A stretch of DNA of 64,000 bases from Litorivita pollutaquae (lineage in GTDB: Bacteria; Pseudomonadota; Alphaproteobacteria; Rhodobacterales; Rhodobacteraceae), in contig NZ_KZ826487.1 in assembly GCF_003205515.1 (NCBI RefSeq), positions 62,001 through 126,000 of the forward strand. The letters are read 5' to 3'. Below the pieces are notes generated by a model. The model was not told the DNA's origin, searched no databases, and worked only from the letters and a program-made list of their open reading frames with translations. Positions 26,622 to 32,597 of this stretch are shown here, piece after piece. How positions within the stretch are numbered: the stretch's first letter is position 1; the number at the start of each line of letters is the position of its first letter. Made by a program: the position numbers and the translations under genes.

Positions 26622-27182
26622 TTACCCCGTCCATGCCGTCGCCACCGGCGGCGCGATCCGCAACAGATCCACGGCCCGCGCTGCGATCTGCTCGATCACC
26701 TCATCCAAGTTCTGCGGGTGAAGGTAAAACGCGGGCACCGGCGGGAATACAATCGCGCCCATTTCCGTCACCGCAACCATATTGCGCAAATGAGCAAGCG
26801 TCAGCGGCGCTTCGCGGGTCAGCAAGATCAACGGCCGCCGCTCTTTGAGCTGCACCGATGCGGCGCGGGTCAACAGATTGTCGTCAAGCCCATGGGCAAT
26901 CGCCGCGAGGCTGCGCATCGAGCAAGGGGCGATGATCATCCCCGCCACCGGCGCCGATCCCGATGCAATTGTGGCACCAATATCGGGCGGTGGATGCACC
27001 CGATCCGCCAGCGCCGTCAGCGCCGCCTCGGCCCCGGCGCCACATTCCGCCGCTAGGGTCCGCTTGGCTGCGGGCGAGATCACCAGATCAAGTGCTCGTC
27101 CGAGCGTACGAAGGTGGCGCGCCACCGCCAGCGATAGCGCCGCACCCGAGGCACCGGATACACCGAGAATGACGCGGCTCAT
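26622..27182 (-). CDS. ubiX: UbiX-type flavin prenyltransferase
   Basis: A 186-residue enzyme that prenylates FMN to make the cofactor of UbiD decarboxylases. Family marks are VILGVSGASGAALS at the N-terminus, IIAPCSMRSLAAIAHG in the middle, and RPLILLTREAPLTLAHLRNM followed by GAIVFPPVPAFY. ATG 27182 overlaps the ubiD stop (ATGA), so cofactor synthase and decarboxylase are translated together. Together with ubiD it serves the decarboxylation step of ubiquinone synthesis. Confidence 0.96.
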   Translation of the reverse strand: MSRVILGVSGASGAALSLAVARHLRTLGRALDLVISPAAKRTLAAECGAGAEAALTALADRVHPPPDIGATIASGSAPVAGMIIAPCSMRSLAAIAHGLDDNLLTRAASVQLKERRPLILLTREAPLTLAHLRNMVAVTEMGAIVFPPVPAFYLHPQNLDEVIEQIAARAVDLLRIAPPVATAWTG

Positions 27183-28699
27183 TGCACCACCTGTCTGCGG
27201 GCTAATAAATCGGCGGCAAAGGCCGCATCCTCGGGTGCGGTCTGCATCACTTCGCCCCATGCGCGCGTGGTTTCTGCACCGATCTTATTGGTGGCATCAA
27301 TGCCGATTTTTCCGGCCAAACCTGCGTCAGGCGAGGCGAAATCAAGATAATCCATCGGTGTCCTTTCCAAAATCATCACGTCTCGGGCGGGGTCCATCCG
27401 CGTTGCCAATGCCCATGCCACGTCATCCCAATTGCGCGGGTCGATATCCGCATCCACAACGATGATCATTTTGGTGTAGCTGAATTGCGGCAACATACCC
27501 CAAAGCGCCATCATCACGCGGCGCGCCTGACCGGGATACCGTTTGTCGATCGCGATCACCGCCATCCGGTAGGAACAGGCCGCAGGCGGCAACCACAGGT
27601 CGCGTATCTCGGGAATTTGCCCGCGAATAACCGGCAAAGTCAGCCGGTTAAAGACCTCGCCGATGATCGCCGGTTCATCGGGCGGACGGCCGGTATAGGT
27701 CGAAAGATACAGCGGATCGGCGCGGCTGGTCAGGGCGCTGACTGTCATCACCGGAAAGGGCTCTGCGGCGTTGTAATATCCCGTGTGATCGCCGAACGGA
27801 CCTTCCGGTGCGGTCTCGGCGGGATCTACCCATCCTTCGATCACCATCTCGGCATCGGCGGGCACCATGAGCGGTACGGTTTTGGCGGGGGTTAATCGGG
27901 GCCGCGCGCCAGAAAAAACTCCGGCAAATCCGATCTCCGACACCGTTTCCGGCAAAGGCAGCGCCGCCGAAAGCACCGTGGCGGGGTCTGCGCCCAAGAC
28001 AATCGCCACTGGCATCGCGGCACCGGCCTGTTGCCATGTGCGGTGATGCGCCGCGCCGCCGCGGTGGGCAAGCCAGCGCAGGATGATCCGGTCTCGCCCG
28101 ATCACCTGTGCGCGGTAAATACCGGCGTTGTAGCGCGCGGCGACCTCGGGTTTGCTGCCGTGCGGGCGGGTCAACACCACTGGCCATGTGATCAAAGGCC
28201 CGCCGTCACCGGGCCAATGGGTTTGAATCGGCAGGGTGGAGAGATCGACCTTTTCGATCACCTTTTGTTGCACCGGCGCGGAGTTCACCAATTTGGGGCG
28301 GGTGGCCATCGCGGCCTTGAGCATCGGCCAGCGTGACAGCGCATCGCGCATTCCCTCCGGCGGCGAGGGCGCCCGCAGAGCCGCCAGAAATGCGCCCAGA
28401 TCATCCAGACCTTCGGGTGCAACCCCAAGCCCTGCAGCCACCCGTTCTGTCGTTCCGAATAAATTTGTCACCACCGGGATCTGTGCCCGGCTGCCGCTGT
28501 CCAATAGCGGATGGTCAAAGCGCAAAACCGGGCCGCCACGCTCCAGAACCGCGCGGTGCACCGCCGTCATCTGATGGCGCACCGAGACCGGATCGGAAAG
28601 CGCGGTCAATTGCCCCGTAGCGGCATTCCATTGCAAAAATGCCCGCAGGGTCGGAAAGGGGGGAAGGGTGCGAATTGGGACTCTCCTTTTGGGTTGCAC
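27179..28699 (-). CDS. ubiD: UbiD family 4-hydroxy-3-polyprenylbenzoate decarboxylase
   Basis: A prenyl-FMN decarboxylase of up to 506 residues that removes the ring carboxylate of the ubiquinone precursor. Family strings include YNAGIYRAQVIGRDRIILRW, AMPVAIVLGADPA, EGPFGDHTGYY and IGIDATNKIGAETTR. The longest frame starts at GTG 28699 with an in-frame stop just upstream. However, a near-perfect AAAAGGAGAG ribosome site lies inside the frame and points to codon 9 (ATT, 28675), so the true start is uncertain. It is divergent from ubiT, with an FNR-type box between. Confidence 0.95.
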   Translation of the reverse strand: MQPKRRVPIRTLPPFPTLRAFLQWNAATGQLTALSDPVSVRHQMTAVHRAVLERGGPVLRFDHPLLDSGSRAQIPVVTNLFGTTERVAAGLGVAPEGLDDLGAFLAALRAPSPPEGMRDALSRWPMLKAAMATRPKLVNSAPVQQKVIEKVDLSTLPIQTHWPGDGGPLITWPVVLTRPHGSKPEVAARYNAGIYRAQVIGRDRIILRWLAHRGGAAHHRTWQQAGAAMPVAIVLGADPATVLSAALPLPETVSEIGFAGVFSGARPRLTPAKTVPLMVPADAEMVIEGWVDPAETAPEGPFGDHTGYYNAAEPFPVMTVSALTSRADPLYLSTYTGRPPDEPAIIGEVFNRLTLPVIRGQIPEIRDLWLPPAACSYRMAVIAIDKRYPGQARRVMMALWGMLPQFSYTKMIIVVDADIDPRNWDDVAWALATRMDPARDVMILERTPMDYLDFASPDAGLAGKIGIDATNKIGAETTRAWGEVMQTAPEDAAFAADLLARRQVVQ

Positions 28700-28730
28700 A
28701 TCGCCCTATCATCGCTGCGTTCCGGCAAAT

Positions 28731-28744
28731 TTGACCGTCGTCAA
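28731..28744. promoter_or_regulatory. FNR/FixK-type box in ubiD-ubiT divergent promoter
   Basis: TTGACCGTCGTCAA is a perfect palindromic TTGA-N6-TCAA site fitting the FnrL/FixK consensus TTGAY-N4-RTCAA. Its centre lies 38 nt from the ubiD GTG and about 155 nt from the ubiT ATG. It could serve either direction. Confidence 0.75.
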
Positions 28745-28892
28745 GATTTCCCGCCGCTGCCGCGTTAGGACAAACCGGCGCTGGTGCCGGTGATGGCCTC
28801 GCGTCGCCCGGGTGCCGATTCTGCGCGCTCTGGACGCAAAATCTGTGCAAACCCCGCGCGAATTGCGCGCAAGACCGGAGCGTGCCGCCCTG

Positions 28893-29435
28893 ATGTCAGA
28901 GTTTTCGGTGCATGTGCCGGTATTTCCACAGCTTCCTGCCTTGGCATTGCGCTGTGCGCCGGTGGCCCCGATGTCCATGGCGCTGGGCGGCTTTGTGGCG
29001 CGTCTGGCACAGCGGCACGCAGGGTTGTTTCGCAGACTTGGGGCTTATGGGCGGTCACGCTTCGTAATTGACCCGACGGATTTGCCGGTTTCGCTGGCGC
29101 TGGAGCCGCGTGGCGGTTGTCCACGGGTACAGGTGTCGCGCGGCCCATTGCACGGCGATGCGCGCATCGCGGGGCCATTGGCGGCGCTGCTTGGGATGGT
29201 GCATGGCGCCTATGATGGCGATGCGTTGTTCTTTTCACGGGATCTGGTGATCGAGGGAGATACCGCCGCTGTTCTGGCCCTGCGCAATGCGATCGATGAT
29301 GCCGAATTGGACTTGTGCGCCGAAGCCCAAAGCATGGCCGGCCCCTTTGCCGATGCGGTCAAACGTGTGGTTGCCCTTGCCGAAACGCGCACCGGTGTCG
29401 CCCTGTCCCGCCGTGAGGAGAATGAAGAATGGTGA
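28893..29435 (+). CDS. ubiT: UbiT, SCP2-domain accessory factor of O2-independent ubiquinone synthesis
   Basis: A 180-residue protein with an SCP2 sterol/lipid-carrier fold. It starts MSEFSVHVPVFPQLPA; the lipid domain runs through VSRGPLHGDARIAGPLAALLGMVHG and DALFFSRDLVIEGDTAAVLALRNAID, the last being strongly UbiT-like. In E. coli UbiT binds quinone intermediates and is needed only for anaerobic ubiquinone formation. The symbol rests on this domain plus direct linkage to ubiU and ubiV. A GTG start at 28812 is possible. Its stop overlaps the ubiU start region. Confidence 0.88.
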   Translation: MSEFSVHVPVFPQLPALALRCAPVAPMSMALGGFVARLAQRHAGLFRRLGAYGRSRFVIDPTDLPVSLALEPRGGCPRVQVSRGPLHGDARIAGPLAALLGMVHGAYDGDALFFSRDLVIEGDTAAVLALRNAIDDAELDLCAEAQSMAGPFADAVKRVVALAETRTGVALSRREENEEW

Positions 29436-30412
29436 TGGAAATCGTTTGCCCCGCGGGCACACCCGCGTCGCTGCGCGCCGCCGTAAAAGCCGGGGCGCAT
29501 ACGGTTTATTGCGGTTATGCCGATGAAACCAATGCCCGCAATTTTCCGGGGTTGAACTTTGATCGAGCGGAAATGCGTGCGGGCATCGCTTTTGCCCATG
29601 CGCATGGCGCAAAGGTGTTGGTGGCGATCAACACCTTTGCGCGTGCGGGGGCAGAGCCCTTGTGGCACCGGGCCATTGCGGATGCTGCAACCGCCGGGGC
29701 CGATGCGGTTATACTGGCCGATCTGGGGCTATTGGCTCATGCCGCCGCGCATCACCCGACTTTGCGCCGCCATCTGTCGGTGCAGGCCGCCGCCGCCAAT
29801 GCCGATGTGATCAATTTCTACGCCGCTACCTTTGGCGTGCGCCGTGTGGTTTTGCCACGCGTGCTGTCGGTGCCGGAAATCGCCGCAATCAATGCCGAGG
29901 TCGAGGTCGAAACCGAGGTCTTCGTCTTTGGCGGGCTTTGCGTCATGGCCGAAGGGCGCTGTTCTTTGTCCTCATATGCGACAGGGCAATCCCCGAACAT
30001 GCAAGGGGTTTGCTCCCCCGCGAGCCATGTGGATTACCATGAGGACAACGGTGTTCTTTCGGCCAAATTGGGCGGCTATACCATCCACCGCGCTGCTGCC
30101 GGAGAACCCGCGCCCTATCCGACCCTGTGCAAAGGATGCTTCACAACTGAGGGCGCGTCCGGCCATCTGTTCGAAGATCCGGTGAGTCTCAATGCTGAAA
30201 CCTTAATCCCGCAACTGGCCAAGGCGGGCGTGCATGCTCTCAAGATCGAGGGGCGGCAACGTTCGCGGGCCTATGTGGCGCAGGTGGTGCGCAATTTCCG
30301 CGCCGCCGTCGATGCACAGGCGGCAGGCAAACCGATGCCCGAAGGCATGTTGGCCCGTCTCACCGAAGGACAGGCCGCCACGGCGGGCGCTTACAAGAAA
30401 ACCTGGAGATAG
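29429..30412 (+). CDS. ubiU: UbiU, [4Fe-4S] U32-family protein of O2-independent ubiquinone hydroxylation
   Basis: A 327-residue U32 peptidase-family protein that with UbiV performs the oxygen-independent hydroxylations of the ubiquinone ring, using prephenate as oxygen donor in E. coli. Four cluster cysteines are present at C171, C178, C195 and C234, with exactly the spacing of E. coli UbiU (7, 17, 39). The start MEIVCPAGTPASLRAAV is typical. AGGAG lies 8 nt before ATG 29429, which overlaps the ubiT end by 7 nt. ubiV follows after 3 nt. Confidence 0.95.
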   Translation: MVMEIVCPAGTPASLRAAVKAGAHTVYCGYADETNARNFPGLNFDRAEMRAGIAFAHAHGAKVLVAINTFARAGAEPLWHRAIADAATAGADAVILADLGLLAHAAAHHPTLRRHLSVQAAAANADVINFYAATFGVRRVVLPRVLSVPEIAAINAEVEVETEVFVFGGLCVMAEGRCSLSSYATGQSPNMQGVCSPASHVDYHEDNGVLSAKLGGYTIHRAAAGEPAPYPTLCKGCFTTEGASGHLFEDPVSLNAETLIPQLAKAGVHALKIEGRQRSRAYVAQVVRNFRAAVDAQAAGKPMPEGMLARLTEGQAATAGAYKKTWR

Positions 30413-30415
30413 GCG

Positions 30416-31315
30416 ATGCAATTGACCGTTGGAGCGAACCAGTTCTTTTGGAGCCCCGAGGATTGGGGTTCCAGCTACACGGCTTTGGCGGCTGCGCCGG
30501 TGGACCGCGTGGTTTTGGGCGAATTGGTCTGTTCAAAACGTTTGCCATTTTATCAAGACCGCATACCTGCGGCGATCGAGACGCTTTCGGCGGCGGGCAA
30601 GGCGGTGTCGGTGACCTCATTGGCGTTGATCACCTTGAAGCGTGAACGCAAGCTTGGCGCCGAATTGGTTGGAACTGGGGTCGATATCGAGATCAACGAT
30701 CTATCTATGTTGGCCTATCTGCCTGAAGGGACGTCGTTTTCTATCGGCCCGCTGGTTAATGTCTATAATGAGGGCAGTTTTGCATGGCTGGCCGCACGGG
30801 GCGCGCGCAGCATCTGTTTGCCGCCGGAACTGCCGATTGACGCGGTGCGCATTCTGGCGCAACTGGGCCGCCGCCTAGGTGTTGCGGTCGAGGTTTGGGG
30901 CCACGGGCGCGTGCCCTTGGCGATCTCGGGGCGGTGTTACCACGCGCGGCGCCAGGGGCGCAGCAAGGATAATTGTCAATTCGCCTGCGAAAACGATCCG
31001 GACGGTTTGGATGTTACGACTCTGGAGGGGCAGGATTTTCTTGCTATGAACGGCGTGCAAACCCTGTCGGCCAGCTTTGCCTGCGTCGATCATCAGATCG
31101 AGGTGTTGCAAGAGGCGGGGGTGACGGGGCTGCGATTGTCGCCGCATACCGGAGATTTCACGGCCGTCTGCGCGCAGTATCGCGCCCGTATCGACGGCCA
31201 CGTTGCGCGTGGTGCCGTGGCCGACGCTCTCTTGGCCGCCTATCCGGACCGGCACCTCAGTGACGGGTTCTTGACCGGCGCACGCGGCGCAGATTGGTCC
31301 GGCCCCTTGCCGTAG
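30416..31315 (+). CDS. ubiV: UbiV, [4Fe-4S] U32-family partner of UbiU
   Basis: A 299-residue U32-family protein forming the heterodimer with UbiU. The cluster cysteines are C39, C174, C187 and C191. The E. coli order and spacing (one early Cys, then x12 and x3 gaps) is kept in GRCYHARRQGRSKDNCQFAC. It starts MQLTVGANQFFWSPEDW as expected. The gene is 3 nt downstream of ubiU, so ubiTUV is one operon. A possible terminator hairpin lies about 130 nt downstream. Confidence 0.95.
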   Translation: MQLTVGANQFFWSPEDWGSSYTALAAAPVDRVVLGELVCSKRLPFYQDRIPAAIETLSAAGKAVSVTSLALITLKRERKLGAELVGTGVDIEINDLSMLAYLPEGTSFSIGPLVNVYNEGSFAWLAARGARSICLPPELPIDAVRILAQLGRRLGVAVEVWGHGRVPLAISGRCYHARRQGRSKDNCQFACENDPDGLDVTTLEGQDFLAMNGVQTLSASFACVDHQIEVLQEAGVTGLRLSPHTGDFTAVCAQYRARIDGHVARGAVADALLAAYPDRHLSDGFLTGARGADWSGPLP

Positions 31316-31448
31316 GCGGGTCTGCGGTGCTGATCTGCGGTTGGTTTGATCCTGTCTGATCCGTTGGATTTGGGGCTGAACCTTAAGGCATGACATGGCA
31401 CGATATATTCCATTCAGTGCTCTGGTTAATCTCGAGGATATGATCCTG

Positions 31449-31484
31449 CGGGCAGTCTACGGGTCCTGCCCGATATCCATTTTT
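31449..31484 (+). terminator. possible rho-independent terminator of ubiTUV
   Basis: The stem CGGGCAG / CTGCCCG (7 bp) has a 10-nt loop and is followed after 7 nt by five T. The distance to the T-run is longer than ideal. Confidence 0.4.
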
Positions 31485-31747
31485 CGACCACGATGTGGGT
31501 GAGATACGGGCGGCGCATGGGCATTGGGTGACGATAGCGACAGTGCGTTGGGGGGGCGAAATTTACTCCGGAGGCGCGATACCTTTGACCAGCGGAGACC
31601 CTGACGCGGTCCGCAAGGGCAGGCTGGGGAAACATTGGCGCGGCTTGATGCCTGCCGGTGCGATCTGTGGCGTGCTGTTTGGTGGCACCGCTTGCGGGCG
31701 GGTGTCATTGGCCCCTGACAGATTTCACACCGCTTTGCTTGCGCCGT

Positions 31748-31761
31748 TTGATTTTGATCAA
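31748..31761. promoter_or_regulatory. FNR-type box upstream of Crp/Fnr regulator
   Basis: TTGATTTTGATCAA matches the FNR consensus TTGAT-N4-ATCAA at every defined position. It is centred 114 nt before the regulator start codon, consistent with control by FnrL or by the regulator itself. Confidence 0.8.
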
Positions 31762-31868
31762 GACGCAGCGACGGGTTTTGGTCTTTGTCTGGGCAGATCC
31801 ACCGTGGGACCGGCCCGTCAGGACAAGCCCGTCCCCATCATGCGGTGTATGCCCTGCCGGAGACCCCG

Positions 31869-32597
31869 ATGACCCAAGAACCCCACCCGTGCGGCAAATG
31901 CAGCTTTTTCCAACGCAGCCTGTGGCGTCCGGTTGCCGGTGGCGCGCGTGCGACCCTGACGCGAAGTTTCACCCGCCGCGAGGTCGAAACCGGCGGCGTG
32001 GTGTTCCATCAAGGTGCCCCCAGCGATGGCGTTTATTGTATCTCCAAAGGCTTGATTGCCATACGCAGCTTTGCGCCCGATGGCAGTTCAAGTCTGTTGC
32101 GCCTCGCCTATCCGGGGGAATTGATCGGCTATCGGGCCTTTATGACCGGGCGGGACCATCGGACCGAAGCACAGGCAGTGTTGCCCTCGCGGGTGTGCAT
32201 CGTGGCGCAGCGCGATGCCAAGCAGGTGGTACAAGCCTGCCCCGAGGTTCTGGCCCGTTTGGGTCTGCGCTGTGCCGACGAATTGGATCGCTGCCACGAC
32301 CGCATTCACGACGCGGCGCGGGTTTCGAACAAGGCGCGGTTGGCGCAGGTGTTGGACCGGTTGATGGCGGCGCATGGCGCAGCAACGGGCGGCGCAATAA
32401 GCGACCAACAAGGCGACGCGGATCGGATCACATGGCGGATGCGCCTGCCGATCTCGCGTCAGGATCTGGCCGATATATTGGGGGTTCAGCCTGAAACATT
32501 ATCGCGGCTGATGACGCGGTTGGAACAAGACGGAGCAATGCGCGCTTCTGGACGCTGGATTGAAATGCCGTTTTCACCGCAAAAGCGGGCGGTTTGA
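31869..32597 (+). CDS. Crp/Fnr family regulator with FNR-type DNA reading helix
   Basis: A 242-residue regulator with an N-terminal cyclic-nucleotide-binding-like fold and a C-terminal winged helix (SRQDLADILGVQPETLSRLM). The recognition helix keeps E209, S212 and R213, the residues that let FNR read TTGAT half-sites. Cysteines C8 and C11 (CGKC) and C110 fit three of the four FNR cluster ligands. The third N-terminal Cys is absent. ATG 31869 has GGAGACC just upstream. Its position behind ubiTUV and its own FNR box suggest an oxygen- or redox-linked regulator of this locus. Confidence 0.9.
   Translation: MTQEPHPCGKCSFFQRSLWRPVAGGARATLTRSFTRREVETGGVVFHQGAPSDGVYCISKGLIAIRSFAPDGSSSLLRLAYPGELIGYRAFMTGRDHRTEAQAVLPSRVCIVAQRDAKQVVQACPEVLARLGLRCADELDRCHDRIHDAARVSNKARLAQVLDRLMAAHGAATGGAISDQQGDADRITWRMRLPISRQDLADILGVQPETLSRLMTRLEQDGAMRASGRWIEMPFSPQKRAV

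Follow-up and report, generated by a model that had tools for sequence, protein, structure and literature searches.

The locus considered here lies in a 64,000-nucleotide stretch of the Litorivita pollutaquae genome (contig NZ_KZ826487.1, positions 62,001 to 126,000; hereafter the window) and places the genes ubiX and ubiD back to back with ubiT, ubiU and ubiV, followed by a gene for a Crp/Fnr-family regulator. It raises the question of whether the two sets of ubiquinone genes are controlled as one unit and, if so, by which protein. Our answer, to which we assign a probability of roughly 0.85, is that they form a low-oxygen ubiquinone divergon of Rhodobacteraceae, of FnrL type, in which one box serves two back-to-back promoters. 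This reading is based on the gene identities, the box, the promoter geometry, conservation in relatives and co-occurrence across genomes; FnrL binding and activation, as well as the mutant phenotypes, come from the work of others on relatives and are applied to L. pollutaquae by analogy. The features of the divergon, in the coordinates of the window, are as follows.

26622-27182, minus strand: ubiX, flavin prenyltransferase, prenyl-FMN supply for UbiD (NF004685, 221.4 bits, cut-off 188; TIGR00421, 188.7 bits, cut-off 108.9; Pfam Flavoprotein)
27179-28675, minus strand: ubiD, 3-polyprenyl-4-hydroxybenzoate decarboxylase (TIGR00148, 455 bits, cut-off 244.85; UbiD N, middle and C domains)
28703-28708, minus strand: -10 element predicted for ubiD, TAGGGC (transcription predicted to start at ~28696)
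28731-28744, no strand: central FNR/FnrL box TTGACCGTCGTCAA, between ubiD and ubiT and common to both operons
28766-28771, plus strand: -10 element predicted for ubiT, TAGGAC, shifted by one base from the most frequent spacing (transcription predicted to start at ~28779)
28893-29435, plus strand: ubiT, SCP2-type accessory factor of anaerobic ubiquinone synthesis (NF047962, 72.7 bits, cut-off 46.9)
29429-30412, plus strand: ubiU, U32-family iron-sulfur (Fe-S) hydroxylase subunit (NF047963, 501.8 bits, cut-off 440; CX6CX16CX38C)
30416-31315, plus strand: ubiV, U32-family Fe-S hydroxylase subunit (NF047965, 323 bits, cut-off 275; C39 and CX12CX3C)

The gene order given in a preliminary description of this DNA is borne out: ubiX-ubiD on the minus strand and ubiT-ubiU-ubiV on the plus strand diverge around a perfect TTGA-N6-TCAA box, and the Crp/Fnr gene follows ubiV. 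UbiT, UbiU and UbiV all score above the NCBIfam equivalog cut-offs and UbiX and UbiD above subfamily cut-offs; the ubiD product is the sole UbiD match in the genome at E<=0.001. Both U32 proteins retain the cysteine patterns of their [4Fe-4S] clusters, as defined in PMC6747719. By analogy with mutants of relatives (PMC10626278), UbiTUV are predicted to be needed for ubiquinone synthesis without O2.

Only two exact matches to TTGA-N6-TCAA are present in the window, TTGACCGTCGTCAA and, 5' of the regulator gene, TTGATTTTGATCAA. Shuffled controls gave an expectation of 1.05 exact boxes, with two or more in 31 of 100 shuffles, so that the number of boxes is within chance, proves little by itself and was rejected as evidence; it is the position of the first box that carries weight. 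We compared the best 80 of 90 UbiV relatives, which come from named genomes and, owing to the way they were chosen, are closely related, several belonging to a single genus; 73 of these loci have a usable divergent ubiD-ubiT gap, the seven excluded being non-divergent or incomplete (six) or having odd coordinates (one). The central box is exact in 67 of the 73 gaps and has one mismatch in five and two mismatches in one, compared with exact boxes in 82 of 14366 control stretches of 145 bp (0.6%) from the same loci. A survey of 395 genomes of the family gave a similar picture: among 26 of the 44 UbiV-linked ubiD genes (one contig, that of L078 and L177, is counted twice overall), 24 have an exact box, one gene has a box with a single mismatch and another a box with two, and an exact box was found at none of five ubiD genes of UbiV-less genomes.

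The class II promoter position is -41.5. When the window and 67 relatives (n=68) were stacked on the central box, with the box centre set at -41.5, TA was found at -12/-11 in 61 of 68 sequences on the ubiT side and 63 of 68 on the ubiD side, and within one base of this position in 68/68 on each side, compared with a mean of 1-1.5% and a maximum of 13% at other positions of the stack. In the window itself, the -10 element has the exact spacing on the ubiD side and is shifted by one base on the ubiT side. Given TA at -12/-11 on both flanks, a single central site, at -41.5 of two mirror-image class II promoters, is predicted to drive both operons. This position is described as near optimal in PMC5398030.

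A true FnrL is encoded separately in the genome (L083; NF045989, 464.3 bits, cut-off 300), next to a HemN-like open reading frame (ORF; label assigned by eye). In Rhodobacter sphaeroides, an FnrL site identified by chromatin immunoprecipitation on arrays, TTGATgtagGTCAA, is assigned to both RSP0466-4 and the ubiD operon RSP0467-8, each with a positive effect, and direct activation of RSP0467-8 by FnrL has been proposed (PMC2908626). In this 2010 description of the FnrL regulon, RSP0465 bears the annotation of a U32 peptidase and RSP0466 that of a putative lipid carrier. Because these data list one FnrL-bound TTGA-N6-TCAA site for ubiD and RSP0466-4, the core of the finding is already known; the divergent arrangement and its FnrL control are in print, and the five-gene unit, which the preliminary description, together with a dedicated regulator, singled out as noteworthy, has a counterpart in R. 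sphaeroides. There are also differences: the partners of ubiD were not recognised as ubiquinone genes in the available text of PMC2908626, which mentions no Crp/Fnr gene after ubiV. Box conservation, promoter geometry and the link to UbiTUV function are added by the present analysis, which joins the 2010 FnrL regulon, with a U32 peptidase and a putative lipid carrier as partners of ubiD, to the work of 2019-2023 that revealed O2-independent ubiquinone synthesis and UbiN. What makes the locus interesting is the family of the regulator, the rule linking UbiD to UbiV and the start codon of ubiD, all discussed below. An FnrL site at ubiD is reported for two Rhodobacter species (PMC4634722), and in R. 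sphaeroides lacking fnrL, CrpK increases the level of ubiD transcripts (PMC4263372).

Thus, it can be proposed that, when O2 falls, FnrL, encoded elsewhere in the genome, would bind the central box and switch on ubiD-ubiX and ubiT-ubiU-ubiV together. UbiX would then supply the cofactor for UbiD, UbiD would decarboxylate the prenylated ring, and UbiU-UbiV with UbiT would hydroxylate it without O2. In the presence of O2, a UbiN-type enzyme would perform decarboxylation and hydroxylation in a single step, so that UbiD-UbiX would be needed only in the O2-independent route. The downstream Crp/Fnr protein would be an accessory regulator that may bind the same type of box. That FnrL itself acts on the divergon in L. 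pollutaquae is inferred from the relatives; joint activation of decarboxylation and O2-independent hydroxylation at low oxygen by an Fnr-family protein, as the preliminary description had it, is well supported because of the conserved central box, the mirror-image class II promoters, the R. sphaeroides FnrL data and the mutants of R. capsulatus.

In R. capsulatus, which has a ubiD-ubiX operon as well, UbiN carries out decarboxylation and hydroxylation in the presence of O2, knock-outs of ubiD-X and of ubiU-V fail only when O2 is absent, and in anaerobic cultures of the ubiD-X mutant DHB, a ubiquinone precursor, builds up (PMC10626278). L. pollutaquae likewise encodes two UbiH/UbiL-type monooxygenases and a UbiN candidate, a salicylate-hydroxylase-like monooxygenase (L119, G000:C2:348400-349644) located beside an exonuclease-III-like ORF (label by eye). 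Relatives of the candidate are found in 142 of 150 Rhodobacteraceae genomes (E<=1e-60) and, besides the candidate itself, are 36-67% identical to it. In the survey, UbiD (E<=1e-60) is present in 50 of 395 genomes, 44 with UbiV and six without. All 44 UbiV-linked UbiD proteins are at least 65% identical, and full-length UbiD at this level is found only with UbiV (44/44), the six hits without UbiV being five homologues of 51-54% identity and one fragment. Where UbiV is at least 50% identical, UbiD accompanies it in 43 of 46 genomes, compared with one of 40 where UbiV is below 50%; the survey genomes are related by descent, so that co-occurrence p-values are only indicative. Together with the near-universal UbiN candidate, this co-occurrence implies that UbiD follows the O2-independent route rather than ubiquinone synthesis in general, and it fits a predicted anaerobic-only decarboxylase; the 44/44 co-occurrence supports separate aerobic and anaerobic decarboxylases in Rhodobacteraceae.

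The 39 of 40 genomes with UbiV below 50% identity and no UbiD at E<=1e-60 (L155-L174 and L134-L136 type) are the place to seek another anaerobic decarboxylase. No decarboxylase was recognised near ubiTUV in 23 such UbiD-less neighbourhoods, in a coarse look affected by antisense ORFs in GC-rich DNA and made without family scans of the ORF clusters; the clusters shared among these neighbourhoods are ubiTUV, NnrS, DUF2478 and, as labelled by eye, a regulator of Rrf2 type. Two UbiV-less genomes of one genus, G049 and G375, encode a UbiD homologue of 51-53% identity, and G049 lacks a UbiN candidate at E<=1e-60 (G375 lies outside the sample searched); in these two, UbiD may work aerobically.

Several observations weigh against an FnrL-type divergon with an anaerobic UbiD. 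The exact central box is missing in six of the 73 gaps. In R. capsulatus, ubiD has an FnrL site without FnrL-dependent differential expression (PMC4634722) and is up only about twofold in photosynthetic growth (PMC5643017); its expression and function there are reported for aerobic conditions as well (PMC10626278). For R. sphaeroides, a phylogenetic profile placed RSP0465 and RSP0466 in the predicted DNR core regulon, not that of FNR (PMC2908626). UbiD falls below the cut-off of the E. coli-type equivalog PRK10922 (517.7 vs 788 bits). The identity of UbiN is derived from similarity and ubiquity, and the low-identity matches may be other monooxygenases. Finally, no nitrate or dimethyl sulfoxide reductase scores above a model cut-off among the three molybdopterin enzymes of the draft genome, namely NuoG, a formate dehydrogenase and a formate-dehydrogenase/nitrate-reductase-like protein that is below all cut-offs; the O2-independent route may be of use in a micro-oxic lifestyle and not for respiring nitrate. 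A different metabolic role, in which UbiD-UbiX would serve degradation of aromatic acids instead of ubiquinone synthesis, appears highly improbable: the UbiD family does include other aromatic decarboxylases, and the VdcB and VdcC models match the protein below their cut-offs, but the box-sharing co-occurrence of full-length UbiD with UbiV and the anaerobic accumulation of DHB in the R. capsulatus mutant both speak for the ubiquinone pathway.

The FnrL-type reading leaves a separate place for the regulator gene downstream of ubiV, which was correctly described as having its own box.

31748-31761, no strand: second FNR-type box TTGATTTTGATCAA, 5' of the regulator gene, lacking a -10 element that recurs consistently at class II spacing
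31869-32597, plus strand: Crp/Fnr-family regulator of an unnamed subfamily, not FnrL (conserved C8, C11, C57 and C110; E209, S212 and R213)

The possibility that this neighbour is FnrL was rejected (56.7 bits against the cut-off of 300, with the cluster cysteines not all in place). Its best sequence match in the PDB is DNR (3dkw, E 4.2e-13); the fold model, with a mean pLDDT of 87.4, has its matches headed by CRP. Of two further regulators with which the neighbour might be identified, CrpK is reportedly devoid of N-terminal cysteines (PMC4263372), and the term cysteine is absent from the main text of the RedB paper (PMC9603854). In 33 sequences of the neighbour family, the recognition residues of the E-SR type (E209, S212, R213) are invariant, as are C8, C11, C57 and C110; by eye, the four cysteines are kept in all 18 members found in the survey. 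Compared with FnrL/FNR oxygen sensors, the neighbour has the same E-SR recognition helix and box, and its two N-terminal cysteines, C8 and C11, and the mid-protein C110 align with cysteines of the genome's own FnrL; it differs in that the third N-terminal cysteine is replaced by the invariant Trp19 and that the additional C57 stands opposite a serine of FnrL. C57 and C110 could be close in space, which is a guess based on the fold family.

The preliminary description took the neighbour for a dedicated regulator. The corresponding model, in which it is the main activator of the ubi genes, occupies both boxes and controls its own gene, we consider unlikely. This model draws on the recognition helix, which predicts the same box, and on the distribution of the family, which was found (E<=1e-40) in 18 of 395 genomes, 17 of which have UbiV, the exception being the weakest match. 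UbiV itself is present in 86 of the 395, so that its presence in 17 of the 18 is a nominally strong association (p ~2e-11, kinship ignored), although the family profile was built from ubiV-linked members and the link is partly built in. In 12 of the 17, no more than 5 kb separate the gene from ubiV, an exact box precedes 20 of 33 regulator relatives, and the placement of RSP0465 and RSP0466 in the DNR core regulon makes a DNR-like regulator not far-fetched. Against this, 69 of the 86 UbiV genomes have no neighbour match at E<=1e-40, six of the 17 carrying it lack UbiD, and in a class-wide sample the family appears in only four of 289 genomes at E<=1e-35, our own genome included. The exact central box is present in 27 of 28 divergent relatives with the regulator in the examined flank and is kept in 40 of 45 without it, including 33 of 37 with at least 9 kb examined downstream; furthermore, R. 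sphaeroides employs FnrL, plus CrpK, at ubiD. In the comparison with relatives that the preliminary description called for, the central box was thus conserved, the second box less so, and the regulator only sporadically.

It is possible, though we hold it to be less likely than its opposite, that the neighbour functionally belongs to p450-alkB, NnrS and DUF2478, and adjoins ubiV through a common low-oxygen neighbourhood. The alkB and p450 genes accompany the regulator in 18 of the 33 loci that have it in the flank and are present in only one of the 47 other loci (flank lengths differ). In L132 the regulator, away from ubi, is still divergent from p450-alkB, and in L131 it lies a few kb from this pair in a different orientation. 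However, alkB-p450 is missing near the regulator in 15 of the 33 relatives and in the window, three relatives with regulators 60-71% identical (L002, L026, L030) have the exact box without the pair, and the second box shows TA at -12/-11 in only five of 21 cases towards the regulator and in 0/21 towards the p450 side. Given the patchy distribution, the central box kept without the neighbour and the lack of a consistent -10 element at its own box, the neighbour is an accessory, sporadic partner of low-oxygen genes, a candidate rather than a proven ubi regulator, and any role of it in ubi control is inferred. A dedicated regulator of the divergon is not supported. More speculatively, and with considerable doubt, the neighbour might represent a Crp/Fnr subfamily of its own, in which ligands displaced from the FNR spacing (C8, C11, C57, C110) hold a metal or Fe-S site that responds to O2, NO or redox state. 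Such a protein would read the FnrL box and give the ubi divergon of some Rhodobacteraceae another low-oxygen input with a tuning different from that of FnrL, while an ATT start would separately throttle ubiD translation.

Other systems show parts of this arrangement. In E. coli, UbiT, UbiU and UbiV are likewise encoded by a divergent ubiT/ubiUV pair under Fnr boxes at low O2, with the differences that two Fnr sites lie between ubiU and ubiT and that UbiD and UbiX serve both pathways (PMC10470549, PMC6747719). In Dinoroseobacter shibae, the nirS/nosR2 and hemA3/dnrE pairs each share a single, centrally placed FnrL/Dnr box that acts in both directions, at distances of 41.5 and 39.5 bp from the respective starts, and FnrL activates further Crp/Fnr genes in a cascade; unlike here, these are denitrification genes, and only FnrL among the four regulators is said to have Fe-S cysteines (PMC5398030).

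The start of ubiD is unusual. It is probably an ATT codon (28675-28673, minus strand) behind AAGGAG, with an in-frame GTG eight codons upstream (28699-28697). The start could be read by motif (Arg codon 2, Leu/Met-Arg near codon 10) in 73 of 77 relatives with ubiD, the other four being unreadable; with the window included (74 genes), codon 1 is ATT in 28, GTG in 20, ATC in 10, ATG in nine, TTG in four and GTT in three, that is, ATT, ATC or GTT in 40 of the 73 relatives. Conservation begins at codon 1 (Pro5 in 72/74, Leu14 in 73/74, Trp16 in 72/74; Arg2 is fixed by the motif) and reaches at most 46% at any of the ten preceding codons. A Shine-Dalgarno-like stretch, under a permissive pattern, precedes 40 of 40 non-canonical and 31 of 33 canonical starts. 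In 18 of the 40 non-canonical cases a stop is reached upstream before any in-frame ATG, GTG or TTG, and the first downstream alternatives lack a Shine-Dalgarno sequence; the other 22 have an upstream in-frame alternative, within 20 codons in 20 of them.

By comparison, starts are canonical in 78 of 78 ubiV genes, 47 of 48 readable ubiT genes and 70 of 78 ubiU genes, the remaining eight ubiU starts never being ATT, ATC or GTT; the ubiX and regulator genes were left out of the controls, their first residues aligning too poorly. ATT makes up 26% of internal Ile ATT and ATC codons vs 28 of 38 at ubiD codon 1. Among 25 readable survey ubiD genes (of 26), codon 1 is ATG in 17, ATC in four, ATT in three and TTG in one, as read with a motif whose first residue is restricted to I, V, M, L or T; the prevalence of ATG at the same position marks it as the ubiD start. 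A literature search on the ubiD start codon in Rhodobacter returned no paper containing both ubiD and AUU. An odd start repressed through IF3 is reported for sigR of Streptomyces (PMC5472188), and a role of the non-canonical ubiD start as a translational throttle is possible.

A few minor observations concern the regulator neighbourhood. The genes that recur between ubiV and the regulator are DUF2478, NnrS and, on the opposite strand, p450-alkB (L003, L034, L042, L053, L058, L077 and others). A p450-alkB pair beside the regulator was sought in L. pollutaquae and rejected: the best AlkB homologue is on another contig, unlinked, between MutY-like and DNA-methyltransferase-like ORFs (labels by eye). 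Remote members of the cysteine-bearing Crp/Fnr subfamily are found in L152 (G366), L153 (G035) and L133, and a few kb separate the G035 member from an ORF that was labelled by eye as [NiFe]-hydrogenase-like.

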